This document shows positions 9,895 to 45,250 of a stretch of 64,000 nucleotides of DNA, piece after piece. The translations under genes and the position numbers were made by a program. Position 1 is the stretch's first letter, and each line of letters opens with the position of its first letter. This DNA is from a virus, in IMG/VR virus record IMGVR_UViG_3300024999_000075, positions 1-64,000 of that record, one strand, 5' to 3'. The notes under the pieces were generated by a model that was not told where the DNA came from, made no database searches, and saw nothing but the letters and a program-made list of their open reading frames with translations.

Positions 9895-9898
9895 GAAT

Positions 9899-10405: not shown

Positions 10406-10596
10406 TTTACATAACACCAACAATAGGTCAGCCTGGGTATACTCCAGAGATAACACTCTGTCACTTCTGCCATAAGCCTATTACACAAGGCATATCAGAC
10501 GACTTTAAGGTAACAACCTACAAGCCGAAGATATGCCTTGACTGTGCTATGGAAATACAATGCACGATGCATCTTGAAAACGGAGGTTTTTGGTGA
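10402..10596 (+). CDS. Small zinc-ribbon-like protein
   Basis: 64 residues with CHFC and CLDC about 26 residues apart, a four-Cys zinc ribbon layout. ATGA overlap with the upstream gene. May bind nucleic acid or protein; function unknown. Confidence 0.6.
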   Translation: MIYITPTIGQPGYTPEITLCHFCHKPITQGISDDFKVTTYKPKICLDCAMEIQCTMHLENGGFW

Positions 10597-27273: not shown

Positions 27274-27281
27274 TAGCCTAT

Positions 27282-27629
27282 ATGGAGTGGGAGCAAGAGT
27301 GGGGCCATCAATTGCCCACTCTTCTCCAGTACCAGAAAAACACAGGTAAAACTCCAAGTGGGCTACAAAACATGCCAGTCCTCCCCTTCTACCTAGAAGA
27401 GATCCTCAATCACTTCTACACCCTCTCCCGCTCCCGCCAATATTACGCTGAGATAGTCCCAACTAAGACTGGACAGGTCTATACAGTCAGACGCCCGAAT
27501 CCAATTGATGTTTCAGTTATACTAAGCTATAATGCCAATATTGCTAAGGTGCTTAAAGACTGTGACTTCCTGGATATCATCCAGACCTTAGACCACATGT
27601 ACATGCAGAACGCCTTCAAGAAGGGATAG
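27282..27629 (+). CDS. Tail chaperone extension (lambda gpT-like part)
   Basis: 115 residues in the -1 frame of the preceding gene; probably made mainly as a C-terminal extension by frameshifting, because its own ATG has no ribosome site. Contains YYAEIVPTKTGQVYTVRRP. The T part is thought to bind tail tube subunits while the G part coats the tape measure. Ends 3 bases before the tape measure start. Confidence 0.72.
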   Translation: MEWEQEWGHQLPTLLQYQKNTGKTPSGLQNMPVLPFYLEEILNHFYTLSRSRQYYAEIVPTKTGQVYTVRRPNPIDVSVILSYNANIAKVLKDCDFLDIIQTLDHMYMQNAFKKG

Positions 27630-27632
27630 CCG

Positions 27633-30600: not shown

Positions 30601-32882
30601 CCCTTGAGTCAGAGCTTCAAACTTATTTAGCTGTAGCTAACAATGATGTTCTCGCTAATAAACTCGCTGATCTGGATAAAGAATACAACAAACATAAGGC
30701 AGTAGTAGAAGCCATCATCGTTACTGAAGAGTTTTCTGCTGAGAGGAAGAAGCAGTTATCATCTGATGTTGCTGATTGGTACGCCAAAGAGCAGGAGCGA
30801 ATCCAGAGGGACGCCTGGAAAACAGAGAAAGAGCAACTCTTGGCTCAAGAGACTATGGCTGCTGGTTTTAAGGCTAGCCTGCTAGAGATGAAGAATGATG
30901 TTACTTCACTGGGTGATTTATCCTATAGCACTATGATAGGTGTAAGGGATACATTCAGATCTGAAGTCGGAGATTTTCTCATCTCACAGTTTGGTGGAAT
31001 TGAGGGAGCATGGGGATCTCTGTGGGATAACATGCTTGCTAAGTTTGGAGCAGTGCTGGCTGACATGGTAGCTCAGTGGGCGGCTAACGCTGTGTTCAAC
31101 ATGGTGTTCACCAGCAGTGGAGCAGCTGCCGGACAATCAAGTACAGGTGTTGCAGCTGGTACAGCTACTTCAGCTATTATAGATGCCTATGCTGAAAGTG
31201 ATGCCACTTGGTTTAGTGATGCTTGGGACGCTGTTGAAACTTGGTGGGGTAGTGCCGATGGTGGGTATATAGCTGCTAATCCTAGAGGTGGTAGAATAAA
31301 TGCTGGTACTGGGTTAAGCGATGATGTATTTCTGGGCTTCACAAATGGTGGGAAGACAGCTAATTACGGAATGGGTGGTGAATATATTATTAACAAAAAA
31401 GCCACTGCCAAGAATCTCCCTCTGCTGGAGGCTATCAACTCTGAGGGGTATGCCACTGGTGGATTATATGACTCAGGTGTAACCGGTACTATGATTGGCC
31501 CAAAACCAGGAGGAGGGGGAGCGAAAAGTAGAGTATTTGAGAAGTTCAACGAGCTTGCTATCGCTATGCAGGGTGCTGGAATGTCTGCTGAAGATGTCAA
31601 GGATAAATTTAAAGATATGGCAGAGGCAACTAAAGATGCTGATTCTGTTATAGAAAAGAATAACAATGGCCTGAGAGACAACAGTACAACAACGCAGGCT
31701 GCTACTACTGCCACGAGTGAGCTGTCTAAAGCGCAAGATGTTGCTACCACAGCCTCTGTTGCTCAAAAGGAATCATCAATTTCTCTTGGTAGTGTTTTGT
31801 CAGGTGTAGCAACTCATGCCACTATGACTGCTGTAAAAATGGGGTCTGTTGCTTTAGCTTCAACTGTGTTAGGTCCGGTATTAGGTTCTTTAGCAGTTAA
31901 GTTGGGGACAACTACAACAGCCTATGAAGAATTTCAAGCAGTTGTTGAGGGATTTTTTGATAATACTTTTGGCGTAGATGCCGGGGTTGTATCGTCAGCT
32001 ATAAGTACTGCCGCCGAAGATGCCTTCGGAGATATAGCCTCTATGTTTGGAGATGCGACAGCAGGATTTGGTGAAGCAGCTGAAGGTTTAAGTGATTCTG
32101 CGTCAGCATTAAGTAATGCTGCCGAAGGTGCTCTTAGTAGTGCCTTAGATTCTTCTTCAGCACTAAGTAACGCAGCTGCTGGGGCTTTTGGAGAGACTAG
32201 CTTTGGGGCGCAGATGACTCAAGCGTCAGCAGAATCTCTAATGAGTTCAGCGTCAGCGTTGTCTTCATCTGCTTCATCCTTAGGGGGGGCGGCTGCGAGT
32301 ATAGGTAGCTGGTCTCCTGGTATGAATCCCACCAATAACGCAGGTGGTGCTTTAGGCGATCCCGATATAGATAGTAGAGATAGAACTGATGACACTACTC
32401 CTGGAGGTCTTTTAGGCGGGGGCGGTGGGGGCGGGTCTAGTTCATCGTCTTCCGGAGGGGACAGTTTTAGTGCTCCTGACCCAGATAAAGGTAATGATCA
32501 ATGGGCAAGCGGCGGCTGGCTTGCTTATGCTACTGGTGGCTGGCTTGGTAAACACCCCAATGGAGGTTGGATTAACGGAGGATCTGGGAGAAGAGATGAT
32601 GTCTTCCTTGGTTATACCAATGGTGGCTCCACAGCTAACTTCGGTATGGGTGGAGAGTTTGTCGTCAACCAGAGATCCTCAGCCAAATATGCTAAAGAGT
32701 TGGAGGGTATAAATAATAACACCATGAACACAGTAAATCAGCAAAAACAACCACCAAATTTGACTATACCAGTGTATATTGGTAGTGAGTTGCTTACAAC
32801 GCTGATCGTTGGAGTTGTTGATGATCAGTTCTCTGTACGGCAGCGCAACCCACAGGTAAAAGGAAGGTTGTACGCAAAATGA
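27633..32882 (+). CDS. Tape measure protein
   Basis: 1749 residues. N-terminal coiled coil with near-identical 42-residue repeats (residues about 131-256), a TP901-type core around residues 330-620 (MRELAQSPVELAEGLKELTK, aggregation-prone helices), long charged coiled coils to about 1080, and a Gly/Ser-rich C-terminus. A module GGxIN-GTG-DDVFLG-TNGG-TANYGMGGEYIIN occurs twice (about residues 1209-1255 and 1640-1685), recalling the NGEFVVN motif near the end of many tape measures. By the usual 0.15 nm per residue the tail would be about 260 nm. Protein ends overlap the next gene by 4 bases. Confidence 0.9.
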   Translation: MTIEIGANTTQAQQQIGQLEKAMALMERRVVTLSQANVELEKYTKTLEATQSKQRAATLSAADAQAKYAAEAMKGATAAEKLIGIETAGSRLNTLIAKQLEERNSSLAAHNASVLKGIDAAQRLIGVETSGSLLNKQIYEQMKLRLGTQEAYNASALKGAAAAERLIGIETSGSLLNKQIYEQMKLRLGTQEAYNASALKGAAAAERLIGVETSGSLLNKQIYEQMKLRLGTQEAYNASALKGAAAAERLIGIETSGLRMNTLIAQQMRDRYAEQDKLEKGKTKLSATTSKLDNVTNRYSATSKNLHGALRGTAGALDLLFLSYGAVIPLATAFAAVSTSIQIQKLGSSFEYLTQYAYSISDMTVSVQDMRKELLAMRELAQSPVELAEGLKELTKAGMDVTTALTELPTVAKFAAIAEQDLAASTEQLITLHSAFKETTTNATGGMITLADTADIVASATQGSVASFTDFQTALKYTTALASVADLSLQEVSAAAMLFADKALKGSIGTTAMRTAITKMLAPTDAVKQLMKDAGIEFNKFISGDKIMSLEKMFEELNRIRETMSREEWAKFSFKAFGLRGELAEAAFTNLPKFRENLDLLSKSAGFTAKAFSDLSETTKMQLKFLGDEIKNALIKAFDGEKATEILKGLRVIVSSPEFINGVDGLAVAFYKLAQTLVVVADAATESIGTIVDYTKGLAIAFASEDKTFTQWLTSKREGMKTWIAESESGLSQYKDQLKIVSDEIAQISKIRDLEMGDGGWTESAEKQFQALLKQKQGIEGSIEALKNKSQVTVNDTAKTGELTTATAIATKATNDHAASVDKLSEKEEKKIKVAEASHQKLISLTEEMNTFIDNSGVKTTANQLERIEKEHNAREASIKAAVGSETEKAEARLANDKSYEIKRQGVIEESEKTILAKEESFLDQLVESGNSAYDRKLAKLESAYAKEEAWIDKNVDDSLKAEELKWLNFEAYAKKKIDLQTESNAKAVSLESELQTYLAVANNDVLANKLADLDKEYNKHKAVVEAIIVTEEFSAERKKQLSSDVADWYAKEQERIQRDAWKTEKEQLLAQETMAAGFKASLLEMKNDVTSLGDLSYSTMIGVRDTFRSEVGDFLISQFGGIEGAWGSLWDNMLAKFGAVLADMVAQWAANAVFNMVFTSSGAAAGQSSTGVAAGTATSAIIDAYAESDATWFSDAWDAVETWWGSADGGYIAANPRGGRINAGTGLSDDVFLGFTNGGKTANYGMGGEYIINKKATAKNLPLLEAINSEGYATGGLYDSGVTGTMIGPKPGGGGAKSRVFEKFNELAIAMQGAGMSAEDVKDKFKDMAEATKDADSVIEKNNNGLRDNSTTTQAATTATSELSKAQDVATTASVAQKESSISLGSVLSGVATHATMTAVKMGSVALASTVLGPVLGSLAVKLGTTTTAYEEFQAVVEGFFDNTFGVDAGVVSSAISTAAEDAFGDIASMFGDATAGFGEAAEGLSDSASALSNAAEGALSSALDSSSALSNAAAGAFGETSFGAQMTQASAESLMSSASALSSSASSLGGAAASIGSWSPGMNPTNNAGGALGDPDIDSRDRTDDTTPGGLLGGGGGGGSSSSSSGGDSFSAPDPDKGNDQWASGGWLAYATGGWLGKHPNGGWINGGSGRRDDVFLGYTNGGSTANFGMGGEFVVNQRSSAKYAKELEGINNNTMNTVNQQKQPPNLTIPVYIGSELLTTLIVGVVDDQFSVRQRNPQVKGRLYAK
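28023..28400 (+). repeat. Three 126-bp near-identical tandem repeats
   Basis: Units at 28023-28148, 28149-28274 and 28275-28400 differ at only a few bases. They encode 42 residues each (SLLNKQIYEQMKLRLGTQEA...). More divergent copies flank the block (27870-28022 and after 28400). Recent in-frame duplications. Confidence 0.93.
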
Positions 32883-33847
32883 TACTTGTAGAGTTCACAC
32901 CTAACGGAGGGACCCTTCAGAGGATTAGTAATGAAGACATCGCGCTGGAATACCAATGGTTTGGATACATCACCAGTATGAGTACGATGAAGTTGTCATT
33001 GCCTACTCGTCATGGAGGGTTTGCCCGCCCTGAGTTTGCTAGTATTGCTATATCTCCAGAACTCATGCAGGAATTAGGAGCATATTCAGAAACAGCTGAT
33101 GTGTGCTTAATAGAAACCGATACTGATGAGAATGGAGGGATTGTACTTTTTACTGGTACAGCTAGACTTGATACTTATAATAGGTATAGTTTTGTTTACA
33201 ATCTCAAGCAGTCTGAGATGCCAGAAACTATAGCAGCATCAACTGCTTATAATAACACATTGGTTAATGTTGTATCTTCATTATGCACTACTTTAGGTTT
33301 GACACTTGATTCAACAGCAGCCAGGTCCCTATCCCCAGCAGTACTACACACTACTACATCTAATCAGTTAGCAATTGATTTATTGTCCGATATGTGTTCT
33401 TTCTTCTCTCATGGAGTTAAGATAATAGGAACCACCTTATATCTTTATGATATGTTGGGAACACAGACAGCCACAAACCTTGATGAATTTGATGTTCAAC
33501 CTTGTGAATATCTCAAGGATACTCCTTACTCCTTGTTTAAAGCAACGGATACACAGACTCTAGTGGGGACCGTTGGAAATGGCGGGGAGTACAGCGTTAC
33601 TCCATATCATACAACAGGGACCAATATTCAAACAGCTCTCGCTGATATAAAATCCATCATGGAGAAGGATATAGCTAATATTCGCTTCAAGTCAAATCAA
33701 AATAAACCTAGTATCCTTGATCAAATTACTCTTCTTGATGAATCATTAGTTTTACCAGTTATCACTACAGGAATAATTACTTCAATAATATATGACTATG
33801 ATACCTTGTCTGTTGACGCTGAAGTATCAGGGAGTGTAACAGTATGA
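32879..33847 (+). CDS. Distal tail / baseplate hub protein
   Basis: 322 residues, directly after the tape measure with a 4-base overlap. Beta-rich; contains FTGTARLDTYNRYSFVYNL and a later SLCTTLGLTLDSTAARSL helix that recall tail hub proteins. Likely part of the tail tip. No specific motif. Confidence 0.55.
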   Translation: MILVEFTPNGGTLQRISNEDIALEYQWFGYITSMSTMKLSLPTRHGGFARPEFASIAISPELMQELGAYSETADVCLIETDTDENGGIVLFTGTARLDTYNRYSFVYNLKQSEMPETIAASTAYNNTLVNVVSSLCTTLGLTLDSTAARSLSPAVLHTTTSNQLAIDLLSDMCSFFSHGVKIIGTTLYLYDMLGTQTATNLDEFDVQPCEYLKDTPYSLFKATDTQTLVGTVGNGGEYSVTPYHTTGTNIQTALADIKSIMEKDIANIRFKSNQNKPSILDQITLLDESLVLPVITTGIITSIIYDYDTLSVDAEVSGSVTV

Positions 33848-34614
33848 GACATATTTCCCAAAACAAAATCACCGTTATAGCTGCCGACTCAGTTGATGTA
33901 AATTTTCCAGCCTCTCGTATGCTTGATGAACACCCAAAGCGTAAGTATAAGGCAGCTACCGGAGTCAGCGCAGCCATTCTCACAGCTGAAGTCGTTGGCG
34001 GGTGTTCCGATATCATAGTTGCTGGGACAAACGCTGGTAACGCAACTATAAGTGTAGCTGACCCAAATGCAGTGGAGTGGGGGTATGGGTCGGAATGGGG
34101 GTATGGATCAGAATGGGCAAACATCGAAATAAATGTTACAGCGTCTGTTATACAGAGGAGTAAATCACAATCCCTCTGGTTACAGCTATCAAGTACTGTT
34201 TTAGTCCCCTGCATTATAAGAATGGAGATATTTGGGCCTGGAGGTGTAGCGGTGGAGGCTGGTGTAGTTAGTGCTAACATCGTTAATACTTATGGAGACA
34301 AAAATCCAAACTATGGTATGGGGGAAAGTCGCTTAGATTATTCAGTAAAAGCTGAAAATTCAAATGGTTCAATGTACTACAAAAAACGCGATATTGTCAG
34401 ATCCTATGATATATTGGTGCAAACAACGAGGGAAGAAGCAATTAATTTGGAAAATTCATTTGATAACTTAGGGGAAATACCCAGTGGCTGGAAACTTACA
34501 GATCTACAAGGTAATGATTTTGTGGTCTATGGTAAATTTGATGGCCCTCCACAGATATCACATAGTTACCCACAACATTCAGACGTAAACTTTAGAATAA
34601 TTGAGGTGCTTTAA
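33844..34614 (+). CDS. Tail tip protein with short WGYGSE repeat
   Basis: 256 residues. Beta-rich with an internal direct repeat EWGYGSEWGYGSEW around residue 80. ASRMLDEHPKRKYKA near the N-terminus recalls a segment found in proteins that follow the tape measure in some phages. Coupled by 4-base and 1-base overlaps to its neighbours. Tail tip or baseplate role inferred from position. Confidence 0.55.
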   Translation: MRHISQNKITVIAADSVDVNFPASRMLDEHPKRKYKAATGVSAAILTAEVVGGCSDIIVAGTNAGNATISVADPNAVEWGYGSEWGYGSEWANIEINVTASVIQRSKSQSLWLQLSSTVLVPCIIRMEIFGPGGVAVEAGVVSANIVNTYGDKNPNYGMGESRLDYSVKAENSNGSMYYKKRDIVRSYDILVQTTREEAINLENSFDNLGEIPSGWKLTDLQGNDFVVYGKFDGPPQISHSYPQHSDVNFRIIEVL

Positions 34615-35534
34615 TGGCAGTGCGGAAAATATTTACTACTACAAAGAGGACCGGGGCGGGAACAGACAGTGGGGCGGCAGACTCTGTTTCTGCTATGACC
34701 GCTATCAGCAAGGACGTTGCGACCGATGGTGCTATGTGTCTGATCATGGAGGATGATGGAAGTGGGTTTTATGGATATCTTTACGATGCAGCTGGGACAG
34801 ACGCAACTAGCGCCCCTGACACTTATAGGCCAAATGATTACACGGTCGCTGGTAACTGGAAGCTGCAGCAGTCACCATTTGGTGAGTTTTTCCCGATAGT
34901 CACATCAACTGTGCCAATAAAAGGAGATATCCGGGGTGGAGATGTAACTGTGTCTGGACAGACACTAACTATTGCACCATGTTCATGCAAAGATTCTACT
35001 GGAGCAACTCGTCTTTATACTGGGACGAATAAAACCGTAGTGTTGGCAGGGACAGCAAATCAGATATTCCATGTTTTTATGGTGCGACTTGTGGCAGATG
35101 GATCGGTAGAATTTAGGGCTTATACCACCGAGGGGGCAGTCGAGAGTGATGCTGAGGTGGATGCCTGGCGTTGGAGAACATTTGCTATTAACAATGGCAG
35201 TGGGGTGACGTTTGCGCATGTAGTAAAAGGTATGCTTCTAACATTCACAGGAACCTGTCCAACAGTAACATCTACAATGAATACAGCTACATCTGTTGCG
35301 GCTTCAATGCCACCTACAAGGGTAGAATCAGCGTTTTTCTATTTTTCGTCTGCTTCAGCTACAGCGGTTGGTATTAGAAAATATGATGCGTCAGCAGTTC
35401 AATTTTCTAATTTATGTGGTGCATCTTACAATCCATCAATAGGTGAGGTATTGGTACCAGATTCGGGGTTGTTGGTGTTTTATGCTAATAACACAGCAAC
35501 TGTTTTGTGTTATGCTATAAGGCTCAGGGGGTAG
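34614..35534 (+). CDS. Probable tail fibre or receptor-binding protein
   Basis: 306 residues, Thr/Ser/Ala/Gly-rich and beta-type, immediately before a fibre-assembly-like gene. N-terminal MAVRKIFTTTKRTGAGTDSGAADSV fits an attachment region. It is the best candidate for host recognition in the virion. Confidence 0.5.
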   Translation: MAVRKIFTTTKRTGAGTDSGAADSVSAMTAISKDVATDGAMCLIMEDDGSGFYGYLYDAAGTDATSAPDTYRPNDYTVAGNWKLQQSPFGEFFPIVTSTVPIKGDIRGGDVTVSGQTLTIAPCSCKDSTGATRLYTGTNKTVVLAGTANQIFHVFMVRLVADGSVEFRAYTTEGAVESDAEVDAWRWRTFAINNGSGVTFAHVVKGMLLTFTGTCPTVTSTMNTATSVAASMPPTRVESAFFYFSSASATAVGIRKYDASAVQFSNLCGASYNPSIGEVLVPDSGLLVFYANNTATVLCYAIRLRG

Positions 35535-35536
35535 AC

Positions 35537-35986
35537 ATGGATAAATGGTTGTGTATTTTTGATGCCGCAACAAACAGAGGTAAGCGGTGCAATGCTTTGA
35601 ATGGGTTACAAGATGGCGAGTTTTCTTTTAATATCCATCCGTCTCAATGCAGTTGGTTTAATGTCTATCCTAATCGGTATATGTGGGATGGATCAAAAAT
35701 AGTCGAGTGGCCTGGGTGGGAAGCAGAGGAAGCTACGTCCAGAGTTACAGAGAGGAGGTTAACAATATCATGTGGCCCCCTGCAAATTCGTAAAGCCTTA
35801 CGAGCTGCTGGGCTACATCAACAGGTTGTTGATTATATTTCAGCTTCTGATGATGAAGTCAAGGAGGGGTGGGAGTACGCCAGTGAATTTAAGAGATTAG
35901 ATCCTTGGGTACTAGCAGTTCAAGTGGCTTTAGGGAAAACTGACGAAGAAGTTGATGCTATTTTTGAGCTTGCCCTAACGTTTTGA
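35537..35986 (+). CDS. Fibre-associated protein with LQIRKAL...WEYA domain
   Basis: 149 residues; ATG 35537 chosen because of the GGGGG site just before it. The C-terminal 60 residues (LQIRKALRAAGL...VKEGWEYASEFKR...AVQVALGKTDEEVDAIFELA) match a small helical domain I recall at the ends of many phage fibre or fibre-chaperone proteins. Likely assists or decorates the preceding fibre. Confidence 0.65.
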   Translation: MDKWLCIFDAATNRGKRCNALNGLQDGEFSFNIHPSQCSWFNVYPNRYMWDGSKIVEWPGWEAEEATSRVTERRLTISCGPLQIRKALRAAGLHQQVVDYISASDDEVKEGWEYASEFKRLDPWVLAVQVALGKTDEEVDAIFELALTF

Positions 35987-36006
35987 GGTAAGTACGAATA
36001 ATAATG

Positions 36007-36035
36007 TTGATATTGTTTCATAACTAAGCTACATT
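36007..36035 (+). promoter_or_regulatory. Possible promoter for the lysis genes
   Basis: TTGATA, 17 bases, TACATT (weak -10). A small hairpin AGGCTGG-AGT-CCAGCCT (36084-36100) lies between it and the lipoprotein gene. Confidence 0.35.
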
Positions 36036-36135
36036 TTACTATTGTATGACTTACAGGGATTAGTTCATGTTTGACATAACTGTAGGCTGGAGTCCAGCCT
36101 CGGTAATTTAACAAAATTAAATGATGGAGATCTAA

Positions 36136-36687
36136 ATGAAACACTTACTGGTTATTTTATCTTTACTGCTGCTATCAAGTTGCGCTACCCACACCGCAAC
36201 TAACGAACTTATTGCTAAGGCAAACACAAATAGGTTGAAGGAGTTTGCGTCAGGTGTAGCAGCCTGTAACGATAACGCTGCCTGCCAAGTTGCAGTCTCT
36301 ATGGCCTTTGCTGGAAACATGGGGCAGCAGCCATACTTCCGAGAGGACTCCCCACTTGACTATGTGAAAGCATCTGGTTTCATTCTTGGGCCTGCGGTTG
36401 ATATTTTAAGATTGTATAAAACTACGACAAGTGGGGATGCTGCCGGTGTTGTCATTGCTGGTGACAATAACCAAATTGTGGGTATGAATAAGCTGACTGC
36501 CGACAACCAGAGTACTCTTACTGGAACATTTGACACTACTTCTAGTATTGAACACCTTGTATATACTCAAGACTCTACACAGTCTTCCTCAAACGGTAAT
36601 GGATTAGTAGAAAATGTTGAGAACCAACAGGATACATACTCAGGCGATTCAGCCTTAGCAGGAAATAAGGAGGTGCCAGTTGAATAA
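36136..36687 (+). CDS. Lipoprotein
   Basis: 183 residues. N-terminal signal with lipobox LSSC (Cys16), so the mature protein should be lipid-anchored, probably in the outer membrane. The rest is hydrophilic with a Ser/Gln/Asn-rich tail. First gene of the presumed lysis group; an outer-membrane spanin is possible, but it is longer than typical Rz1 proteins and lacks their Pro-rich character. Alternatively a superinfection-exclusion lipoprotein. Confidence 0.7.
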   Translation: MKHLLVILSLLLLSSCATHTATNELIAKANTNRLKEFASGVAACNDNAACQVAVSMAFAGNMGQQPYFREDSPLDYVKASGFILGPAVDILRLYKTTTSGDAAGVVIAGDNNQIVGMNKLTADNQSTLTGTFDTTSSIEHLVYTQDSTQSSSNGNGLVENVENQQDTYSGDSALAGNKEVPVE

Positions 36688-36991
36688 TACAATCATAAGT
36701 TGGGTGATAAAGTTCCTAGCCAAAATGCTTAATGGGAAGAAGGCTTACATAGGTGCTGGTGGTGAGATGCTCACTGGTGTAAGTTCCATTATAGTTGGGA
36801 TCACTGGTATTATTGGTTATGCTTATCCTGACCTCAAACTGCCAGCTATTGAGATTGAGTATTCCTTGGCAGCTATAACAGCTGGAGCAGGTATGATAAC
36901 TGATGGATTCAAGGGTATAGGGTTACGCCATGGAATTGAAAAAATCACTGCTGAAAACAGGGCTGAAGATAACCTTCCGCCTGCCAATTAA
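36680..36991 (+). CDS. Small membrane protein, holin candidate
   Basis: 103 residues, TTG start at 36680 supported by AAGGAGG 6 bases upstream. Two hydrophobic segments (MLTGVSSIIVGITGIIGYA and LAAITAGAGMITDG). Overlaps the lipoprotein gene by 8 bases. Size and location suit a holin or antiholin. Confidence 0.6.
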   Translation: MNNTIISWVIKFLAKMLNGKKAYIGAGGEMLTGVSSIIVGITGIIGYAYPDLKLPAIEIEYSLAAITAGAGMITDGFKGIGLRHGIEKITAENRAEDNLPPAN

Positions 36992-37055
36992 CTGGGAAGA
37001 GGGGCTATGGGCTAGGATCAAGTCACTCTTTGAAGTCAAAACTTTTAAGAAGTAA
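36930..37055 (+). CDS. Possible small basic protein
   Basis: 41-residue frame beginning MELKKSLLKTGLKITFRLPI, overlapping the end of the preceding gene by 62 bases in another frame. Protein-like, but no clear ribosome site; it fills an otherwise empty 100-base gap. Low confidence. Confidence 0.35.
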   Translation: MELKKSLLKTGLKITFRLPINWEEGLWARIKSLFEVKTFKK

Positions 37056-37097
37056 TGACAGTCCAGCCATGTTATACTCTAGGCTATCAATTAACTT

Positions 37098-37445
37098 ATG
37101 AGGCCAGAATACATGTTTGACAAAATACCTGGACTTGAAAATGTTGAAGCTGTCTTCGGACTTCTCGCTGCCAGTGGTGGAATAGCTAGGATCGTTACTG
37201 GAACAAGTAACGATCCTAGAGTTTCTTGGTGGGGAGAGTTAGGTAGGGTTGTCTTTGTTGCCATGCCCATTGGTGTGATAGCTGGCCACTGGGTTACTTC
37301 CATCTCAGAGTCTGAGATCCTTCCCTACGCCGCCAGCTTCACTGCTGGCGTTATTAGCCTGAATATCGTTCGTTTCCTGTTATCCGCCGAAGGCTTCAGC
37401 ATGATTAGAACCTTTATTGGGGGCGGTAAGAATGGAAAATCGTAA
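37098..37445 (+). CDS. Holin (LydA / superfamily III-like)
   Basis: 115 residues with three hydrophobic stretches: AVFGLLAASGGIARIV, VFVAMPIGVIAGHWV and YAASFTAGVISLNIVRFLL. The WWGELGRVVF motif after the first segment is typical of LydA-like holins. A second ATG at 37113 with GAGG upstream is possible. It would open the inner membrane so the endolysin encoded at 43240 can reach the wall. Confidence 0.68.
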   Translation: MRPEYMFDKIPGLENVEAVFGLLAASGGIARIVTGTSNDPRVSWWGELGRVVFVAMPIGVIAGHWVTSISESEILPYAASFTAGVISLNIVRFLLSAEGFSMIRTFIGGGKNGKS

Positions 37446-37662
37446 TCTAATCACTCAACTCTTTATAACCTGGTTATTTTACAACTGCGCTCTAATTGCT
37501 GTGCTGTGGCTTACTTGCTGGAGTTTTGGTCGGGAAGAGTACGAGACAGTGGTAGCTATGATGATTTTCTCGTTTGGGGTTAGTGTTATAGAATATGATT
37601 GGTGGGCGTTAAAGAATAACAGATATGAGAGACGAAAGACAAGGAGGCAGAGAGTTGGCTGA
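37432..37662 (+). CDS. Small membrane protein of the lysis group
   Basis: 76 residues from ATG 37432 (GGGGGCGG upstream). Two hydrophobic segments (LFITWLFYNCALIAVLWLTC and VVAMMIFSFGVSVIEY) and a basic C-terminus (RYERRKTRRQR). Overlaps its neighbours. Could be an antiholin or accessory holin. Confidence 0.6.
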   Translation: MENRNLITQLFITWLFYNCALIAVLWLTCWSFGREEYETVVAMMIFSFGVSVIEYDWWALKNNRYERRKTRRQRVG

Positions 37663-37930
37663 ATATTGTACGTTGTTTTGGGACAAACCATTAGGAGTAG
37701 ATATTAGTGATCTTTGTTATGATCATGACGCTGCTTATGGAACTGGTAAGTTTACGTTAAAATTAATTGGTGATTTAGACTTGGCCAGAGGGATCTGGAA
37801 CAGATCTAGTAGAGCTGATTCACTGTTAAAAAATATAGGTTTGAAATCAATAGCTGTTGGAGCATATGCAGTAACCTCCACAGTTGGAATATTTTTCTGG
37901 GTAAAGGGGATTAGCAATGGCAATAACTAA
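37655..37930 (+). CDS. Phospholipase A2-like small protein
   Basis: 91 residues. TTG 37655 chosen because AAGGAGG lies 7 bases before it. DISDLCYDHDAAYGTGK contains the C-x-x-H-D-x-x-Y signature of phospholipase A2 (catalytic His-Asp), followed by a GDLDLARGIW helix and a C-terminal hydrophobic segment (IAVGAYAVTSTVGIFFWV). Between holins and endolysin, it may attack phospholipids during lysis. Calcium-loop residues are not obvious, so activity is unproven. Confidence 0.55.
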   Translation: MAEYCTLFWDKPLGVDISDLCYDHDAAYGTGKFTLKLIGDLDLARGIWNRSSRADSLLKNIGLKSIAVGAYAVTSTVGIFFWVKGISNGNN

Positions 37931-38207
37931 TGTGATTAATGGTGTTCAAGCCGCTGTAGATGTAGCTGCCGCTACTGCTTTTCCAGTTACTGGTCCTACT
38001 ACCATTACTGCTGATGGCTTCGCTATTGGGGAGTTCGCTCAAGTGTTTAGGCTTGGTCCTAATGCTGCCTACTCAGCCGCTACTAACAAAGACGGCTACA
38101 TCATCTTATCTGTCTTCCCTAACATGGCGCTGATTGACACACCAGGGTCTTATAAGATCATTAAGACAGCTACTGTTGCTGCTGCCTATGTAGGATATGA
38201 GGCTTAA
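37917..38207 (+). CDS. Hypothetical beta-rich protein
   Basis: 96 residues after AAGGGG. Thr/Ala/Val-rich and beta-type (ADGFAIGEFAQVFRLGP), unlike the lysis genes around it; more like a small structural protein. Followed 2 bases later by another beta-rich gene. Confidence 0.62.
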   Translation: MAITNVINGVQAAVDVAAATAFPVTGPTTITADGFAIGEFAQVFRLGPNAAYSAATNKDGYIILSVFPNMALIDTPGSYKIIKTATVAAAYVGYEA

Positions 38208-38209
38208 GG

Positions 38210-38716
38210 ATGTTTGGGGCGACTTACAGAGCCTTTAGAAGGAGCGTCGATGCTGTGTCAGGCAGTAAGGGTGGCGGTTTATATTTGCCTGTAACTGGTC
38301 TTGTTGGTGCCTGGTTGGTAGAAAATGATTTGACCGATTCTATCGGCATATCAAGCATCACGCTGACTACTGGTACAGTCGATGATCTTGCCAATGCATC
38401 GTGGGCTATGCCCTCTGATGCCGTAACGATTCAGGCAGACTCTGATATGGGCGGAGACGTGTTTTTCGATTCGGCAAATGCAATGGCCCCGATAGTGAGG
38501 TTTGGTTATGAGTGGTACGCCCTGCTCAACAATGATTTTGTCTGGATTGGTTTCCACCAATCACGTGGTGGGATTGTAATTTACAGCGCGGATAAATCAG
38601 CGCAGGCGAACAGAATACAAGACTACCTTGGCAGGTATGCACCTGATGCTACGTTCGTTGTTGATGGTGGCGATTTTGTCGTTGATGGCTCAGACTTTAT
38701 AACTGATGGAGTTTAA
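38210..38716 (+). CDS. Hypothetical structural-type protein
   Basis: 168 residues, start 2 bases after the previous stop. Ends in three short repeats of VVDGxDF type (FVVDGGDFVVDGSDFITDG). Central part aromatic (YEWYALLNNDFVWIGFH). Probably a fibre-associated or virion surface protein; no family recognised. Confidence 0.6.
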   Translation: MFGATYRAFRRSVDAVSGSKGGGLYLPVTGLVGAWLVENDLTDSIGISSITLTTGTVDDLANASWAMPSDAVTIQADSDMGGDVFFDSANAMAPIVRFGYEWYALLNNDFVWIGFHQSRGGIVIYSADKSAQANRIQDYLGRYAPDATFVVDGGDFVVDGSDFITDGV

Positions 38717-38719
38717 AAT

Positions 38720-40111
38720 ATGAAAAAGATATTTCCCTTAATATTTACCCTGCTTCTTGCTGGGTCATGTCTAGCCGCAAACGATGACATATCAGACCGA
38801 CCAGAACTCGGAACTGCTACCAGTTCTGATTCGCTGCTTGGGGTTGACGCCTCTGCCGCAGCTGGGGATAGACTCCGCAGAATACTTTTCCAGGGCACAA
38901 ATGGGTATGTCCTGGCGGGTAACGGTACATGGTTTGACCTCACAACTGCTCTAGTCGGAAAACAGGATGTTTCCGCCCTAGTCGGAATCGAAGCCCGCAC
39001 CGGCTTAACCTACACCCCAGCAGCGGGCGAAAATCCGGCATATCTCGACCTTGACGACACCGCAGTAACCCCAGCAGCTTACACCAATGCAAATATCACG
39101 GTTGATCAGCAAGGTCGGGTTACGGCTGCTGAGAGCGGCACTGGTGGGACGGGCATTACGGAGGTCGCAACATTACCCAATCCTCTTGTTGATGGTACTT
39201 TTTATGCGGCAATTGATACAGGTGATTTCACCTATAAGTCTTCAACGGGCTCCTACACGATCACTGGCGCATACACCCCAGATGCAGCGACGTATTCGAT
39301 GACGCTAACCATAGCCGACCTTGATGCAACAGGTGATACTTTCACCGTCGCTAGTGTCCCATACGATGTCGCGGATTCGCCGGCTGTAATCTCTGGTTTA
39401 AATTCCGCAACTGAAGCAATCACATATACCGGGAGCAATACCGCCGATTGTACCGGAACTGCAGTAACGGGCGCGGGACCATGGGCCGTTGATATGTCCG
39501 ACAGTAATGAGTCGGTGAGTTGTTCGATTTCCGTTACTCCTGGCATTTCCGATGATTTCACCGCCGATCAGCTCGCTACTAAGTGGGTTGCTGATCAGGG
39601 AACCTATACAGTATCAGGCGGCGTGCTCAACGCCCCGGCAAGTGCTGCCCAACTGCGTTATGCAACGGCCACAGGAACCATAGATCAGTATGCGAAAATT
39701 AAATACACCGATTCGAACTCCGGCGATGGCGGTGTCCTGCTCCGTGAGACGGGGGCCAGTGGGTATAAGTATAAAGTGTACTACAAAGCCTCGTCAAGCT
39801 ATCTCCAATGGCAGGTATATAATGGTACAGCATGGTCGGCAAACGTAGGCAATACAACGACATTTACGCTCAATGCGGGCGATACTATCGGGTGTACCGT
39901 AACTGGTACAGGTGATGACACTATAGTTCGCGCCTGGATAAATCCCGTAGCCAATGCACCCACGGATATCAGTAGTTGGGATGGTGAGAGCGATGACGCC
40001 GATTATACACTGATCAATAATCCCGTTAACCCCGCAAACACAGGGCTGTACATAGGTATATCCACTACGACCTCCAGGACATTTGATGATTTTTACGGAG
40101 GTTCGAAATGA
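38720..40111 (+). CDS. Secreted tail-fibre-like protein with lectin-like C-terminus
   Basis: 463 residues. The first 20 (MKKIFPLIFTLLLAGSCLAA) are a Sec signal peptide; cleavage after CLA is likely, while the AGSC could also be a weak lipobox. Next comes TPAAYTNANITVDQQGRVTA, a motif I know from phage tail fibres. The last 180 residues (QYAKIKYTDSNSGDGGVLLRE...TGLYIGIST...FDDFYGG) resemble a concanavalin A/LamG-type lectin fold. Overlaps the next gene by 4 bases. A fibre with a signal peptide is odd: it may be exported by the infected cell. Confidence 0.65.
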   Translation: MKKIFPLIFTLLLAGSCLAANDDISDRPELGTATSSDSLLGVDASAAAGDRLRRILFQGTNGYVLAGNGTWFDLTTALVGKQDVSALVGIEARTGLTYTPAAGENPAYLDLDDTAVTPAAYTNANITVDQQGRVTAAESGTGGTGITEVATLPNPLVDGTFYAAIDTGDFTYKSSTGSYTITGAYTPDAATYSMTLTIADLDATGDTFTVASVPYDVADSPAVISGLNSATEAITYTGSNTADCTGTAVTGAGPWAVDMSDSNESVSCSISVTPGISDDFTADQLATKWVADQGTYTVSGGVLNAPASAAQLRYATATGTIDQYAKIKYTDSNSGDGGVLLRETGASGYKYKVYYKASSSYLQWQVYNGTAWSANVGNTTTFTLNAGDTIGCTVTGTGDDTIVRAWINPVANAPTDISSWDGESDDADYTLINNPVNPANTGLYIGISTTTSRTFDDFYGGSK

Positions 40112-43044
40112 TTAAGTGGATTGTTACAATACTGATCACTCTTATTCAGTCATCGGCATTTGCCGTTACGGTGCCACTAACAGTCCAGGAGCGATATAGC
40201 ACAAACAGGACGGATGCACATATCACCTATGGTGTTCCATTCGCCAAGGGCGACAATATCCTGTCAACCGCGAATCTTGGAATAGCCGGGGAAGATGCAC
40301 AGTTCAGGGTTTTATCTCGGTATGATGGCCCTCCGACCGACACAGACAAGCCAATCAGGATGGTGCTGGTTGACTTTCAAGATTCGATTGTTGCGGATGC
40401 GGCCAATAGCTATACTCTGAGCGATTCAGGCCAGGGAGCGGTAGCGGGGAATGATCTTGCTATTGATCGCTCAACATACGTGGAGATTGATACCGGAGCT
40501 GTCAATGCCAGGATCAGTAAAACTTCTGGTAATATTTTTGAAAATATTTGGATAGGTGGTGTTGCCGCCATATCATCCCCGACAGCGGATAAGTGGGTAA
40601 TCGTTTATAACAGCACTACATATTTCTCTTCTCCGACAGCGATAACCATCGAGGAAAACGGCCCCCTTCGCTGCGTCGTGAAGGTCGATGGGGTGTTTAA
40701 GGATGCCACTAACAATAGCTTAATTCCACCAGTGACCAGGATCGGCGAGACTCCTGACACACCGATCAAATATACCATTAGATATACCGCCTATAAAAAC
40801 AAAGGGTACATCAAACTCCAGGCTACATTGCGCAACGAGAATCTTGGCTGGGCCTATAATTCAGCCCAAGCGACTCACAACATAAGCATCACCGAATCAT
40901 ACCTCAAAACAACCATGGATGGGCTTGCAAGCTCAAAAACTGTGGCCTTCAGCGGGTACAGTGATTCGACGACATCCGATACATACGAGCTATTGCAACA
41001 GGAAACATCTGACGGCACAGCACAATCCTATACGTGGGCGTATGCAATTAATAAAAACGCCTCTCCGGTCGCAACCGGAACCAAATATGATAGCTATGCG
41101 GACCTGCGAGATGCCCAAATAGGTTTAATGGTTGCAGACAGATGGTTCTGGCAGAATCATCCCATTGGAATCACGATATCAGGGAACCAAATAAAATTTA
41201 ACCTTTGGCCCGATACCGGGACCGCTCATCGCATTATCGGCGGTATCTGGAAAACGCACGAACTCTTGTATTATTTTCACGGAACCGACGCCTCTTTTGA
41301 TGACGAGTTGGCGCATATTAAGAAAAGACTCATCGCCAGGGCATCGGACGAGTATTACGCTAATACAAATTTTGTCTGGGGGATGTTACCAGAAACAATA
41401 ACATCAAACTATACGTTTCCCGCCGGGGAGCATTTTCAGTATGTGATTGACGCCCAGGCTCAATATCATAGAGCACTGTTTGACGCGGATTATATTGATC
41501 CTGGCAACACCTACACGCCGAACACATTCGATATGTTGCGAGATGGGCGTATGGTCAAACTGACAGCGGCACCGATATATTCGACATGGTACGGATGGCT
41601 GGAGTTCGGTGCGATGCCGTTGACGGCTGGGTATGGGTATCATAATCAGCATTATGATTACACCTTCCTTGCGCTGTCTGGTTTTTTGAGATTCGACGAC
41701 TACAACATGCTTGATATCGCGGAAGAATTACTGCAACACAAGGCTGATATTATAACCATACATGATCCTGACGCGCCAAGTACAGACGCAGGATACGGCT
41801 ATCACGGAGGGCAGAGATACGAGACCGATTCGCTGTTTTCGTACTATGCGGATTACAGCATTAGCGGAAAATCCGATCCGAGAAAATCAGGCCATGCGTG
41901 GTCAAAGGGGATGCAGCTACAGTACTTATTGACCGGCAACCAACTGTACCTCGATGTCGTCGAGCAAATGGGGTTGCATATCCGCAGGCAGCACCAGACT
42001 CCAATGTTTAAAACTGCTGAGACTCGTAATCAGTTTCGGGGTATTGACATACTCGTCAACGAATATCAACTCACCGGGAACCCGTCCGATATTGATGCAG
42101 CATGGGATTTACTGGAAAATTCCCTACTGATTGCCGAGGGCGGGGATTGCACGAACAGAGACGTATTTACAACCTGCACACCTGATGACACGGCTGGATG
42201 GATACCTAACGGGTATGTCAACCAGTATGATTTTGGGGTTGGCGGTGATGCCTGGATGGTCGAGCCTTTGCTGAAATTTTATTATCTATTGCTGAGCGAA
42301 GGAGAGACAACAAAGGCCAGTACTCTCAAGGATTTTTTCCTGCGCTGGGCACCGATCATCGAGACGATGATCAACATCGAGGGCGACCAGGGGACATACA
42401 GATACGATAACGCTGAGTACATGCCGTATGTCGGCAGAATCGGCTACTATGTCGGTGTTGGCTATTCGACCTACGGGACCAATTACACCAATATCAACTA
42501 CGCATATTTGCAACCATATTCGGAACTGTTCACCTTCCTGTACTTGAACGCGCCGAGCAACAACCAGCATTATCTAGATGTTGCGATGAACATCGAAAAG
42601 GACTGCCGAATTTACACATCAACAGCCGATGTTTTTTATCCTGTATCTGACGATACTATTGCAAAGATCGGAGGGTTTCAAACCGCTCAGTCCATTACTT
42701 CAGGATCGTTTAAAATACCAAAATTCCTGACGAAATCAACATTACTGTTGCGGACCATATCAGGGCTGAGTGCGGTGCCGGATGATCCAGTGTGTGATTC
42801 GAGCCACCTGTCGCTGTGCGCATCGGAAAACTGTGCCGGGGCTGGGGGAAATTGGTGTACCGATGTTTGCCAAGTGGCAGCCTGCGAGGCAGAACCGACC
42901 TGCGCTGACCTAACTCAAAACGGCGATGAAACGGGGATCGACTGTGGCGGTTCATGCCCTAATGACTGTTCCGCGCCCGCAGGGTGGCGATCAGTGTTTA
43001 TGATTAATGGCGATGCTGTCCAACTTATTGAGGAAACACCATAA
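40108..43044 (+). CDS. Secreted polysaccharide-lyase-like protein (RIFT barrel, YetA/PcRGLX-like)
   Basis: 978 residues. Signal peptide with a clean SSAFA cleavage site. Residues about 20-125 (TYGVPFAKGDNIL...QFRVLSRYDG...IRMVLVDFQ) match the N-terminal RIFT-barrel of exo-rhamnogalacturonan lyase-like proteins as I know them; the middle, with long helices and many Tyr/Trp/His (WYGWLEFG, YGYHNQHYDYTF, HAWSKGMQLQYLL), fits an alpha/alpha-toroid catalytic domain. The C-terminus is Cys-rich, ending in a NGDETGIDCGGSCPNDC motif seen in secreted surface proteins. Likely an exported or virion depolymerase for host or matrix polysaccharide. GC content is higher than in the tail genes. Confidence 0.68.
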   Translation: MIKWIVTILITLIQSSAFAVTVPLTVQERYSTNRTDAHITYGVPFAKGDNILSTANLGIAGEDAQFRVLSRYDGPPTDTDKPIRMVLVDFQDSIVADAANSYTLSDSGQGAVAGNDLAIDRSTYVEIDTGAVNARISKTSGNIFENIWIGGVAAISSPTADKWVIVYNSTTYFSSPTAITIEENGPLRCVVKVDGVFKDATNNSLIPPVTRIGETPDTPIKYTIRYTAYKNKGYIKLQATLRNENLGWAYNSAQATHNISITESYLKTTMDGLASSKTVAFSGYSDSTTSDTYELLQQETSDGTAQSYTWAYAINKNASPVATGTKYDSYADLRDAQIGLMVADRWFWQNHPIGITISGNQIKFNLWPDTGTAHRIIGGIWKTHELLYYFHGTDASFDDELAHIKKRLIARASDEYYANTNFVWGMLPETITSNYTFPAGEHFQYVIDAQAQYHRALFDADYIDPGNTYTPNTFDMLRDGRMVKLTAAPIYSTWYGWLEFGAMPLTAGYGYHNQHYDYTFLALSGFLRFDDYNMLDIAEELLQHKADIITIHDPDAPSTDAGYGYHGGQRYETDSLFSYYADYSISGKSDPRKSGHAWSKGMQLQYLLTGNQLYLDVVEQMGLHIRRQHQTPMFKTAETRNQFRGIDILVNEYQLTGNPSDIDAAWDLLENSLLIAEGGDCTNRDVFTTCTPDDTAGWIPNGYVNQYDFGVGGDAWMVEPLLKFYYLLLSEGETTKASTLKDFFLRWAPIIETMINIEGDQGTYRYDNAEYMPYVGRIGYYVGVGYSTYGTNYTNINYAYLQPYSELFTFLYLNAPSNNQHYLDVAMNIEKDCRIYTSTADVFYPVSDDTIAKIGGFQTAQSITSGSFKIPKFLTKSTLLLRTISGLSAVPDDPVCDSSHLSLCASENCAGAGGNWCTDVCQVAACEAEPTCADLTQNGDETGIDCGGSCPNDCSAPAGWRSVFMINGDAVQLIEETP

Positions 43045-43243
43045 AAAGTCGGTACAGCCGGTGACTGATAAGAAACTACTATCGAGCAAAATGAAAATAA
43101 CATTAATAATAGTGACATTGTTTATCATTATCTCTGCGTGTTTACACCAGTGGCACCAAGCTGTAGTAGCGCAAGATCTACATGATACCCTACAACTGAA
43201 AGCCTACTATGAGCGGATGGCCAGGGAGTATCCCGCCCAATGA
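43007..43243 (+). CDS. Small membrane protein or lipoprotein before endolysin
   Basis: 78 residues from ATG 43007, or 50 from ATG 43091. The shorter form begins MKITLIIVTLFIIISAC, which reads as a lipoprotein signal (ISAC); the longer form would be a signal-anchor protein with a basic N-terminus. Neither start has a strong ribosome site. It overlaps both the lyase-like gene and the endolysin, so a spanin role is plausible. Confidence 0.6.
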   Translation: MAMLSNLLRKHHKKSVQPVTDKKLLSSKMKITLIIVTLFIIISACLHQWHQAVVAQDLHDTLQLKAYYERMAREYPAQ

Positions 43244-43746
43244 CAGAACAAGATAAAAAACTCCTGGCCTTCACCTTCATGTATGATCACGAAGGTGGGA
43301 CCAGTTATGATGTCAATGATCGTGGTGGTCTTACGAGATTCGGTATCTGCAAGAAACAGTACCCGGATGTGGACATAGCCAATCTTACCAAAGAACTAGC
43401 TGATCAGATCTATACCAGAGACTACTGGCTAAAGAACAAATGTCACCTGATGCCTGCTCCCATAGCCATAGTTGTATTTGATTCCTCTGTTAACTGTGGT
43501 GTTGGCTCCGGCGCGACCTGGCTCCAAAAAGCTATTAACTCTCAGGGTGACAATATTAAAGTGGATGGTGTAATAGGACCAATGACTCTAGCCAAATTAG
43601 ACAGTTGTAACCCTCACAATATAGCTGGTAAGATAATAGCTTATCGTCTTAGAAGATACTCCAAACTCATCTCCAGAGATCCCAGTCAGAGGGGGTTTAT
43701 AACTAGCTGGATAAACAGAGCTGCTGACCTTCTTGAATATATTTAG
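43240..43746 (+). CDS. Endolysin, GH108 family with PG-binding domain
   Basis: 168 residues. YDHEGGTSYDVNDRGGLTRFGI is the glycosyl hydrolase 108 signature with catalytic Glu18; the second half (VFDSSVNCG, WLQKAINSQGD...VDGVIGPMTLAKL) is the associated peptidoglycan-binding region. No signal peptide, so release depends on the holins. Cleaves the glycan strands of peptidoglycan at lysis; the family is typical of phages of Gram-negative hosts. Confidence 0.92.
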   Translation: MTEQDKKLLAFTFMYDHEGGTSYDVNDRGGLTRFGICKKQYPDVDIANLTKELADQIYTRDYWLKNKCHLMPAPIAIVVFDSSVNCGVGSGATWLQKAINSQGDNIKVDGVIGPMTLAKLDSCNPHNIAGKIIAYRLRRYSKLISRDPSQRGFITSWINRAADLLEYI

Positions 43747-43792
43747 TTGTATTGTGGGCAAGTCTCTGGTAGTATTAAATAAAACTTGAGAC

Positions 43793-44653
43793 ATGATGAG
43801 AAAACATTTAGTCATCCCTGACACTCAGATCACGCCCACCTCCCCTAAAGACCACCTCTCCTGGATCGGTCAGTACATCCTTGAAAAGAAGCCTGATGTC
43901 ATAGTCAACCTTGGAGACTTTGCTGATATGGAAAGTCTCTCCAGCTACGACAAAGGTAAGCTTAAGGCTGAGGGCAAAAGATACAAGAAAGATATTGAAG
44001 CTGCCAAGGAAGGCATGGAGCTTCTGCTTGGCCCTATGCGTAGGTATAATGCCAGGAGGAAGACGTGCAAGAAGAAAGGGTATAACCCTGAAATGCACCT
44101 AACTATTGGTAATCATGAACAAAGAATCACAAGGGCTGTTGAGTCTGATGCTGCTATGGAAGGCTTCATGTCTATTGATGATCTTGAGTATGAGAAATTT
44201 GGCTGGCAAGTACACCCTTTCTTGGAAATTGTTGAATTAGATGGAATTAGTTATTCTCACTACTTTTATAACCCCTTATCCGGTCGCCCTTATGGAGGAT
44301 ATTCAATTGACACTATGCTCAAAAATCTCGGCTTCAGTTTCGTACAGGGGCATAGACAACAGTATCTAGTAGGTAATAGATCACTCAATAACGGACGAAT
44401 AATTCGCGGTTTAATCAATGGTTCCGCGTACTTACACAATGAGGATTATCGTGGGCCTCAAGCTAACGGGGAAATGAGAGCAGTTTTTCTCCTGCATGAA
44501 GTAGACGAAGGTAATTACATGCTCACCGAAATCTCCCTCGATTTTCTGTGTAGGAAGTATGAGGGAGTCCATCTGTGGCAGTTCATGAAAAATAAATATC
44601 CAGAGATATACAAGCAGTCACCTTGGATGGTAAGGCAGGAGACTAGAAGTTGA
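43793..44653 (+). CDS. Calcineurin-like metallophosphoesterase
   Basis: 286 residues with the metal-site motifs in order: IPDTQ (about residue 10), NLGDFAD (42-46), IGNHEQR (about 105-111) and VQGHRQQ (about 184). Substrate unknown: such phage enzymes may act on DNA ends, on RNA or on nucleotides. Last gene of the rightward late block, closed by a terminator. Distinct from the Mre11-like enzyme at 50317. Confidence 0.82.
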   Translation: MMRKHLVIPDTQITPTSPKDHLSWIGQYILEKKPDVIVNLGDFADMESLSSYDKGKLKAEGKRYKKDIEAAKEGMELLLGPMRRYNARRKTCKKKGYNPEMHLTIGNHEQRITRAVESDAAMEGFMSIDDLEYEKFGWQVHPFLEIVELDGISYSHYFYNPLSGRPYGGYSIDTMLKNLGFSFVQGHRQQYLVGNRSLNNGRIIRGLINGSAYLHNEDYRGPQANGEMRAVFLLHEVDEGNYMLTEISLDFLCRKYEGVHLWQFMKNKYPEIYKQSPWMVRQETRS

Positions 44654-44678
44654 GGGGAGTATTCCCTCCCCTCAAATT
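44651..44678 (+). terminator. Terminator ending the rightward late block
   Basis: GAGGGGAG-TATTCC-CTCCCCTC hairpin followed by AAATTTT; convergent with the leftward operon that ends at 44714. Confidence 0.65.
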
Positions 44679-44713
44679 TTAATCAGTCTACTTGGATGAA
44701 ACGGAGGGAGGCT

Positions 44714-45250
44714 TTAGCGAAGTAACCCCTCCTTAATCAGCTGTCTCTTCATGTATTCTAATCCACCTGTATTATCTATCACAATGTCTCCAGGCATCAC
44801 CTTGACTCCTCTCTCAGACTTGTGGTTGAGAAACCTCTCCCACCACTTTTTCTTGTAAACTTTACCACCTTTTCTTCCTGTGATGTGTACTACAACCCCT
44901 CCCATATCCCTTGCTAACTGTGCTTCAGTAGGGAAGCGGCAGTCATCAATAGCATGATTGCCAGAGAATCTCTCAATATCAACCTTCATCAGGTGCTCCC
45001 ACAATCCTGGTACAGTCTTCCTCACAAATTCAGTTCCGAACTGCTGCATGACGCTCCTTGGAGATACTCCATAGCGGGGGTCGATTGCCTCCTTCCCCTC
45101 CCATGTTTTCAGTTGATGATCAGAGAAATCAAAGAGATCCTTCAAACATTTCTTGAGGGGTGTAGCAAATGAAACCACCCTATAATTTCCAAGCATCCTG
45201 GCAGCTGTGGTCTTGCCACACCCTTTTGGTCCTGTAAAAGCTACTATCAT
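44714..45250 (-). CDS. Deoxynucleoside monophosphate kinase-like P-loop protein
   Basis: 178 residues. FTGPKGCGKTTAARML is a Walker A (Gly7-Thr15); a later DDCRFPTEAQL matches the NMP-kinase-like DxRxxxE region of phage dNMP kinases such as T4 gp1. It would supply dNDPs for phage DNA synthesis. Last gene of the long leftward replication operon, coupled to the small gene upstream by ATGA. Confidence 0.75.
   Translation of the reverse strand: MIVAFTGPKGCGKTTAARMLGNYRVVSFATPLKKCLKDLFDFSDHQLKTWEGKEAIDPRYGVSPRSVMQQFGTEFVRKTVPGLWEHLMKVDIERFSGNHAIDDCRFPTEAQLARDMGGVVVHITGRKGGKVYKKKWWERFLNHKSERGVKVMPGDIVIDNTGGLEYMKRQLIKEGLLR

Follow-up and report, generated by a model that had tools for sequence, protein, structure and literature searches.

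Phage depolymerases have been studied chiefly as tail spikes. The exo-rhamnogalacturonan lyase PcRGLX of Penicillium chrysogenum, a member of polysaccharide lyase family PL26 with structures 5XQ3, 5XQG, 5XQJ and 5XQO, is built from three domains: a RIFT barrel, a beta-sandwich and an alpha toroid. Here we describe a phage protein in which the same domains are predicted to follow one another in the same order. Its gene, called 40108 after its first position, lies in a 64,000-nucleotide stretch of DNA (the window), positions 1 to 64,000 of the IMG/VR virus record IMGVR_UViG_3300024999_000075. Sequence comparison and structure modeling give good support to the conclusion that the product is a divergent member of the PcRGLX/YetA-like superfamily. 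The gene and the parts of its product are as follows:

40108..43044, plus strand: PcRGLX-like protein of 978 residues (RIFT barrel, beta-sandwich and alpha toroid), predicted to be exported; from the open reading frame (ORF), Pfam, profiles and a structure model
40097..40101, plus strand: Shine-Dalgarno sequence GGAGG, 6 bases before the ATG of 40108
40108..40164, plus strand: signal-peptide-like N-terminus, residues 1-19, predicted cut after SSAFA; from sequence and a rule-based scan
40165..40449, plus strand: RIFT-barrel domain, residues ~20-114, with RYDGPPTDTDKPIRM in place of the RW-PDGS motif of relatives
40450..41289, plus strand: central beta-sandwich (PcRGLX_2nd), residues ~115-394, with FWQN..P and GG..KTHE motifs
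41290..42768, plus strand: alpha toroid, residues ~395-887; predicted local distance difference test score (pLDDT) low in parts
42769..43041, plus strand: Cys-rich C-terminal tail with 10 Cys and DCGGSC; no Pfam match, pLDDT < 50

The ORF runs from an ATG to a stop over 978 codons, and its ATG shares bases with the stop codon of the gene before it (38720-40111), as ATGA. The virus record that holds the window is 81,254 bases long (G000). TerL, portal, major capsid protein and tape measure match PHROGs, and a profile search placed head, tail and replication genes in PHROG families; we classify the record, on its sequence, as that of a phage, a siphovirus. Because its TerL shares only 22-24% identity with that of Pseudomonas phage Lana, Vibrio phage SHOU24 and others (best 20 of 41 matching records), the siphovirus group is probably a little-known one, and its hosts are probably Gram-negative.

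The product of 40108 matches the Pfam family PF21345 (PcRGLX_2nd) with an E-value of 2.4e-9 and 37.1 bits, above the cut-off of 23.5. The mature protein was compared by phmmer with the ORFs of 144 bacterial and archaeal loci and matched at E 9.1e-41, while the reversed sequence and 20 out of 20 shuffled sequences retrieved nothing at E ≤ 10 from the same loci. Two profiles were used, A1 with 7 rows and A2 with 50 rows including the phage protein. When the phage row was left out, the profile of the 49 other A2 rows matched the phage protein with 244 bits in one domain covering residues 12-672. The solved PcRGLX (PDB 5xq3/5xqo) was found by the A1 profile at E 9e-30 and by the A2 profile at E 3.7e-52. 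A scan of bacterial and archaeal genomes for the pattern RWPDGS[IV][RK]W yielded at least 120 stretches and at least 80 loci, and in the 80 loci 76 ORFs carry the motif, mostly in a RIFT-like setting. The phage protein matched these motif ORFs with phmmer E-values down to 7e-25, and the matches to L171, L181 and L225 together are colinear over residues 14-677. The RIFT-barrel model PF19501 was not matched by the phage protein alone at E ≤ 0.01 (six of the seven A1 rows match it), nor by residues 20-121 alone at E ≤ 10. The profile alignment and the predicted fold nevertheless cover the RIFT region, and we therefore base superfamily membership on profile and fold and not on the PF19501 model. 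Weak matches of the product to Nucleo_LEF-12 and PDB entry 9frq, and a match to an Stx2f model (10.9 bits against a cut-off of 715), were taken as chance.

The AlphaFold2 model computed from the A2 alignment has a pLDDT of 73.3 and a predicted template modeling score (pTM) of 0.82. The RIFT barrel and the sandwich are mostly near or above 90 in pLDDT; parts of the toroid and the entire Cys-rich tail are low. In a Foldseek search with the model, 13 PcRGLX chains came out on top (E 7e-22 to 1e-19). VIA-align matched model residues 1..869 to residues 27..922 of chain 5xq3_B (666 residues, root-mean-square deviation 4.3, 15% identity, Z 27.9). The best entry other than PcRGLX reached Z 19.8 over 224 residues, and such entries span part of the model only. 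The three-domain order of the superfamily is present in the model, with the toroid partly at low pLDDT. A first-pass annotation of this DNA, made from the letters alone, had reported the ORF, coordinates and strand that we confirm, as well as a layout of FAKGDN..QFRVLSRYDG..VDFQ that is present in the N-terminal domain. Its guess of a lyase-like protein with a RIFT barrel and a toroid is clearly supported by Pfam, the profiles and the likeness of the model to PcRGLX; the check it had proposed, structure prediction and a search against PcRGLX, is the match at Z 27.9, which extends over all three domains.

The nearest bacterial relative that we saw, L329, is 35% identical to the phage protein over residues 22-421 (E 9e-37) and has the same RIFT motif variant, RW....D..PIRW. 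In the phylum of L329, which is also that of the Planctomycetaceae genome G021 (source of L198), 46 out of 294 genomes gave matches at E ≤ 1e-10. The phylum to which the Kiritimatiellae genome G015 belongs had matches at 1e-6 in 14 of 288 genomes. BLAST at E ≤ 1e-3 found none among 398 genomes from the same phylum as G018, a gammaproteobacterial metagenome-assembled genome (source of L224), but this miss carries little weight because G018 itself has a member. With the A2 profile, 27 of 369 genomes in the class of G018 match at E ≤ 1e-5, many by short partial stretches. We built a FastTree phylogeny from 127 aligned rows, 107 of which had at least 450 of the 780 columns and 103 of which were kept. 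The phage protein groups with L336 and L343 (support 0.858) and, more widely, with L329 (0.632); its terminal branch is long, at 1.64 substitutions per site.

Residues 1-19 (MIKWIVTILITLIQSSAFA, with VTV following the cut) are laid out like a Sec signal peptide, with n-, h- and c-regions and an AxA-type cut. The scan that flagged them used a crude rule of our own on ORFs of at least 150 residues with an ATG start, and the Sec-export feature is assigned to the product by this rule only. It flags 3 of the 38 ORFs of the window, namely 36136 (lipoprotein-like), 38720 and 40108, against a background rate of 20 out of 668 ORFs in 80 viral loci. The last 89 residues (890-978) hold 10 of the 14 Cys of the protein. 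This tail had no match in phages or Pfam, and its motifs recur in none of the other ORFs at the viral loci from the pattern scans. A Cys-rich tail would suit an oxidizing compartment. Given the signal peptide and this tail, the protein is likely to leave the cytoplasm, and we regard this as well supported on sequence grounds. The signal peptide ending in SSAFA and the Cys-rich ETGIDCGGSC motif are both present as first described. The further statement that the infected cell exports the protein is likely to hold for the exit from the cytoplasm and is more conjectural for the passage to the outside: Sec export in a Gram-negative cell ends in the periplasm, and only lysis or another secretion system would carry the protein beyond it.

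One sister record (G001, 74,752 bases) has the sole TerL relative found in IMG/VR, at 85% identity. It joins the homologue of 37917-38207 directly to an endolysin and then to a phosphoesterase (L083:7884-8180, 8180-8677 and 8744-10540). Because the flanks adjoin in the sister phage, 38208-43239 is an extra module of ~5 kb in the window. PF21345 had no match at E ≤ 1 in the 14 viral records searched, G001 included. The GC content at third codon positions (GC3) of 40108 is 0.52, the highest of the 21 genes listed. The module and its flanks comprise, besides 40108:

37917..38207, plus strand: left flank, common with the sister phage (L083:7884-8180)
38210..38716, plus strand: 168-residue protein, first gene of the module, missing at this place in the sister phage
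38720..40111, plus strand: 463-residue neighbor with a signal-peptide-like or lipobox-like start and a fiber-like NITVDQQGRVTAA stretch, ATGA-coupled to 40108
43007..43243, plus strand: 78-residue ORF that overlaps 40108 at its end and encodes a single hydrophobic stretch; not present here in the sister phage
43240..43746, plus strand: right flank, common with the sister phage, a GH108-type endolysin (L083:8180-8677)

We tentatively favor, at somewhat less than even chances, the reading that 40108 is a bacterial-type carbohydrate-active gene taken into an optional late cassette, and that its product is exported, freed by lysis and acts on surface or matrix polysaccharide. Acquisition is suggested because the sister phage joins the flanks without the module and without a PF21345 match and because the GC3 of 40108 is the highest. 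Export is suggested because signal-peptide-like starts occur on both 40108 and the coupled 38720, together with the Cys-rich tail. As read from the sequence, 40108 has a strong ribosome-binding site of its own, and its translation would be coupled to that of 38720. The signal peptide would direct the product through Sec to the periplasm, where the 10 Cys of the tail would form disulfides, and the three-domain body is predicted to fold like PcRGLX. The protein would wait in the periplasm until the product of the adjoining endolysin gene frees it at lysis, unless a host secretion system does so instead. The soluble protein may then bind a polysaccharide of the capsule, the matrix or the environment that contains uronates or deoxysugars, and would probably cut it by means of its altered active site; the substrate need not be rhamnogalacturonan. 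Such cutting would let progeny diffuse and adsorb, a role in progeny spread that we infer by analogy.

Several observations weigh against this reading, some of them genomic and others at the active site. The GC3 argument is modest, given that the values of head genes come to about 0.45. Sequence searches revealed the gene in no second phage (tblastn of 50,697 phage records at E ≤ 1e-3, no match). At the active site, the stretch LEITYEDW has its Tyr in the PDB sequence of 5XQ3 but a Phe instead in that of the substrate complex 5XQO, and since Phe replaces Tyr in the substrate complex, this Tyr of PcRGLX is presumably essential or catalytic. The loop that bears it is absent from the phage protein, whose own loop at this place is 10 residues long. 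The phage protein also has Ala at position 502, which is acidic in 104 of 109 relatives of a wider set, and Ile at position 549, where 93 of 107 have Asp; these conservation counts are no unbiased census, as the relatives were picked by the searched motif or by queries with the phage protein or A2. PcRGLX has Asp at both positions (YGFLDYGDF and GEVDVYH). The most conserved toroid columns of A2 are G501, D502 (45 Asp and 3 Glu out of 48), H544 (47 of 47), D547, D549 (47 of 47), H566, H596 and R640 (47 of 47), and the phage protein departs from them only by A502 and I549. Ala at 502 is not among the residues listed for the relatives, and position 499 is Glu in the phage protein and Asn in most relatives. 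Together, A502 and I549 could mean a dead enzyme. The PL26 features that we tested, the Tyr loop and the toroid acids at 502 and 549, are all lacking, which would place the product of 40108 in the superfamily yet outside PL26 proper. The polysaccharide-clearing enzyme of the first-pass annotation is no more than a candidate, with the Tyr loop gone and the near-invariant acids replaced by Ala and Ile.

The replacement of the two acids, the absence of the Tyr loop and the long terminal branch would fit a glycan-binding pseudoenzyme at the periplasm or cell surface, the main rival explanation. Such a protein would mask or titrate a receptor (superinfection exclusion) or hold lysis debris that traps progeny. 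We consider this unlikely, although it deserves to be taken seriously. Most other toroid residues are kept in the phage protein (Y516, D517, H544, D547, H552, H566, H596 and R640), as are those of the KTHE stretch (K382-T383-H384); all of these are pocket-like and speak for the favored reading, and a dead pocket need not keep them. The tree neighbors L336 and L343 carry Val at 549, so the change at this position may be a feature of the branch and not decay. A short loop (≤14 residues) is also found in 37 of 112 relatives, 21 of which have a His shortly before GG, as does the phage protein (H374). Returning to an active enzyme, the boldest form of the favored reading is an optional Sec-exported PcRGLX-fold enzyme of a lytic-type siphovirus, in which a short-loop, His-containing site replaces the PL26 Tyr and two canonical acids are gone. 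It would be diffusible, released at the burst and dedicated to freeing progeny from polysaccharide of the host or the community, and a new family of lyases (or hydrolases) would begin with it; we hold this to be possible but doubtful.

Further searches from the phage sequence alone also returned no relative. This applies to tblastn with residues 20-421 in phages at E ≤ 10, to tblastn in plasmids at 0.01, to megablast of window positions 27000-44800 in phages, and to peptide-pattern scans of IMG/VR viral contigs and of genome contigs. In viral contigs, the DNA patterns for GVPFPKG and GVPFAKG matched 73 loci, none related; PIR[WM].LVDFQ and RWPDGS[IV][RK]W matched nothing; and an alignment-based scan gave 19 candidate stretches, none confirmed. 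Foldseek against BFVD returned A0A516M318 (viral, 738 residues) at E 8.3e-8 with TM-scores of 0.35/0.43; of the 169 matches it alone reached E ≤ 0.001. Another viral protein of PcRGLX-like fold may therefore exist, judging from these models.

Among the neighbors, the 38720-40111 product reached a pLDDT of only 34 when modeled without an alignment, and it has a weak tblastn match to a Synechococcus phage head-decoration protein. We assume that its LLAGSC could be a lipobox. LbR_Ice_bind and SpaA_3 matches of neighboring genes were below cut-off and were taken as chance. A 101-residue protein encoded at 37625-37930 (phrog_6098, E 2.7e-5) stands among holin/lysis-like genes and is kept in the sister phage; its CYDHD motif is presumably phospholipase-A2-like. 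The sister phosphoesterase (L083:8744-10540, 598 residues) contains an intein-like insertion, CYDTATEILTESGW...SGNC, that is absent from its counterpart in the window (43793-44653, 286 residues). Behind the tape measure, the tail-tip/receptor regions of the two phages (32879-36000 and L083:1677-5781) have no homologues between them, which hints at host-range exchange.

The location of 40108 in the late region, after the tail genes and behind a fiber-like gene, and the difference in receptor-binding region between the sister phages would also fit a virion part. The product would then be a tail-attached depolymerase or adhesin whose hydrophobic N-terminus is a bacterial leftover or otherwise used. 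In the model, however, the RIFT barrel comes right after the signal peptide, with no sign of an N-terminal tail-anchoring domain; export-type starts occur on two adjacent genes; and no PHROG tail family was matched, although absence of a match is weak evidence. We judge a virion part to be less probable than a pseudoenzyme.

Beyond the window, at 65530-66351 of the record (minus strand; L344:1530-2351), lies a gene for a TAXI-type periplasmic solute-binding protein (NMT1_3, E 4.9e-18) with a signal-peptide-like start and an 87% identical copy in the sister phage. Our literature search, which covered mainly open-access titles and abstract openings, found nothing pertinent on a phage-encoded protein of this type. 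Its presence in the same record means that the handling of nutrients in the periplasm is nothing alien to this phage, and would agree with 40108 being an auxiliary metabolic gene, whose exported enzyme would release sugars from environmental polysaccharide as food for the infected host. Yet 40108 lies next to the endolysin among late/lysis genes, where it would act too late to feed the host, and the sister phage, which has no 40108 gene, keeps the solute-binding gene; we regard this explanation as quite improbable. The minus strand also encodes a 234-residue protein with tandem YdcK beta-solenoid repeats (PF18836, E 1.7e-25; L344:15483-16187) and a CCA-adding enzyme-like protein (PF01743, E 4.6e-26; L344:13213-14496). 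Despite the latter, ARAGORN found no tRNA genes in the 64-kb window.

If the favored reading is true, a three-domain lyase-like protein of bacterial type, with a signal peptide and encoded in an optional cassette by an endolysin gene, would suggest that some phages secrete proteins active on polysaccharides or set them free. This would have an effect on biofilm and matrix turnover and could provide enzymes of new specificity. The locus also makes one question concrete, which is whether the short-loop branch of the PcRGLX superfamily is catalytic. The same literature search found no phage-encoded PcRGLX-like protein.

Compared with the systems described so far, the phage protein shares FW..yP, T-[HS]-E and H..[DE].....H stretches with PcRGLX. 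PcRGLX differs in being the product of a fungal gene with the Tyr loop and Asp at 502 and 549, whereas the phage protein has a Cys-rich tail, A502 and I549. Uncharacterized PcRGLX-like proteins of Planctomycetota and Kiritimatiellae (L329, L336, L343, L171, L181 and L225) are ~22-35% identical to it. The RW...D..PIRW variant recurs in L329, L337, L339 and L331, and the short loop in L329, L336 and L343; all of these lie in bacterial genomes, unlike the phage protein, and L329 keeps both Asp. In the portion of the source available, gp34 of Alishewanella phage LSH1 is a virion-associated beta-helix protein that matches rhamnogalacturonan lyase (PMC13243795). It resembles 40108 in being a polysaccharide-lyase-like product of a siphovirus late gene near lysis genes, but the fold, a parallel beta-helix, is unrelated, and we dropped it as kin. 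An excerpt of another source describes the GH32 (levan) enzymes of phages SP10, phiNIT1 and SPG24 as having no signal peptide (PMC4595243). PghP and LevP of Bacillus phage phiNIT1 are, according to the accessible part of PMC6966330, free capsule- and levan-degrading enzymes, apparently host-derived and not tail spikes, and PghP is no virion part but is set free at the burst. These phage-encoded free enzymes are a precedent for the free depolymerase proposed here, although they belong to other enzyme families and to phages of Gram-positive hosts.

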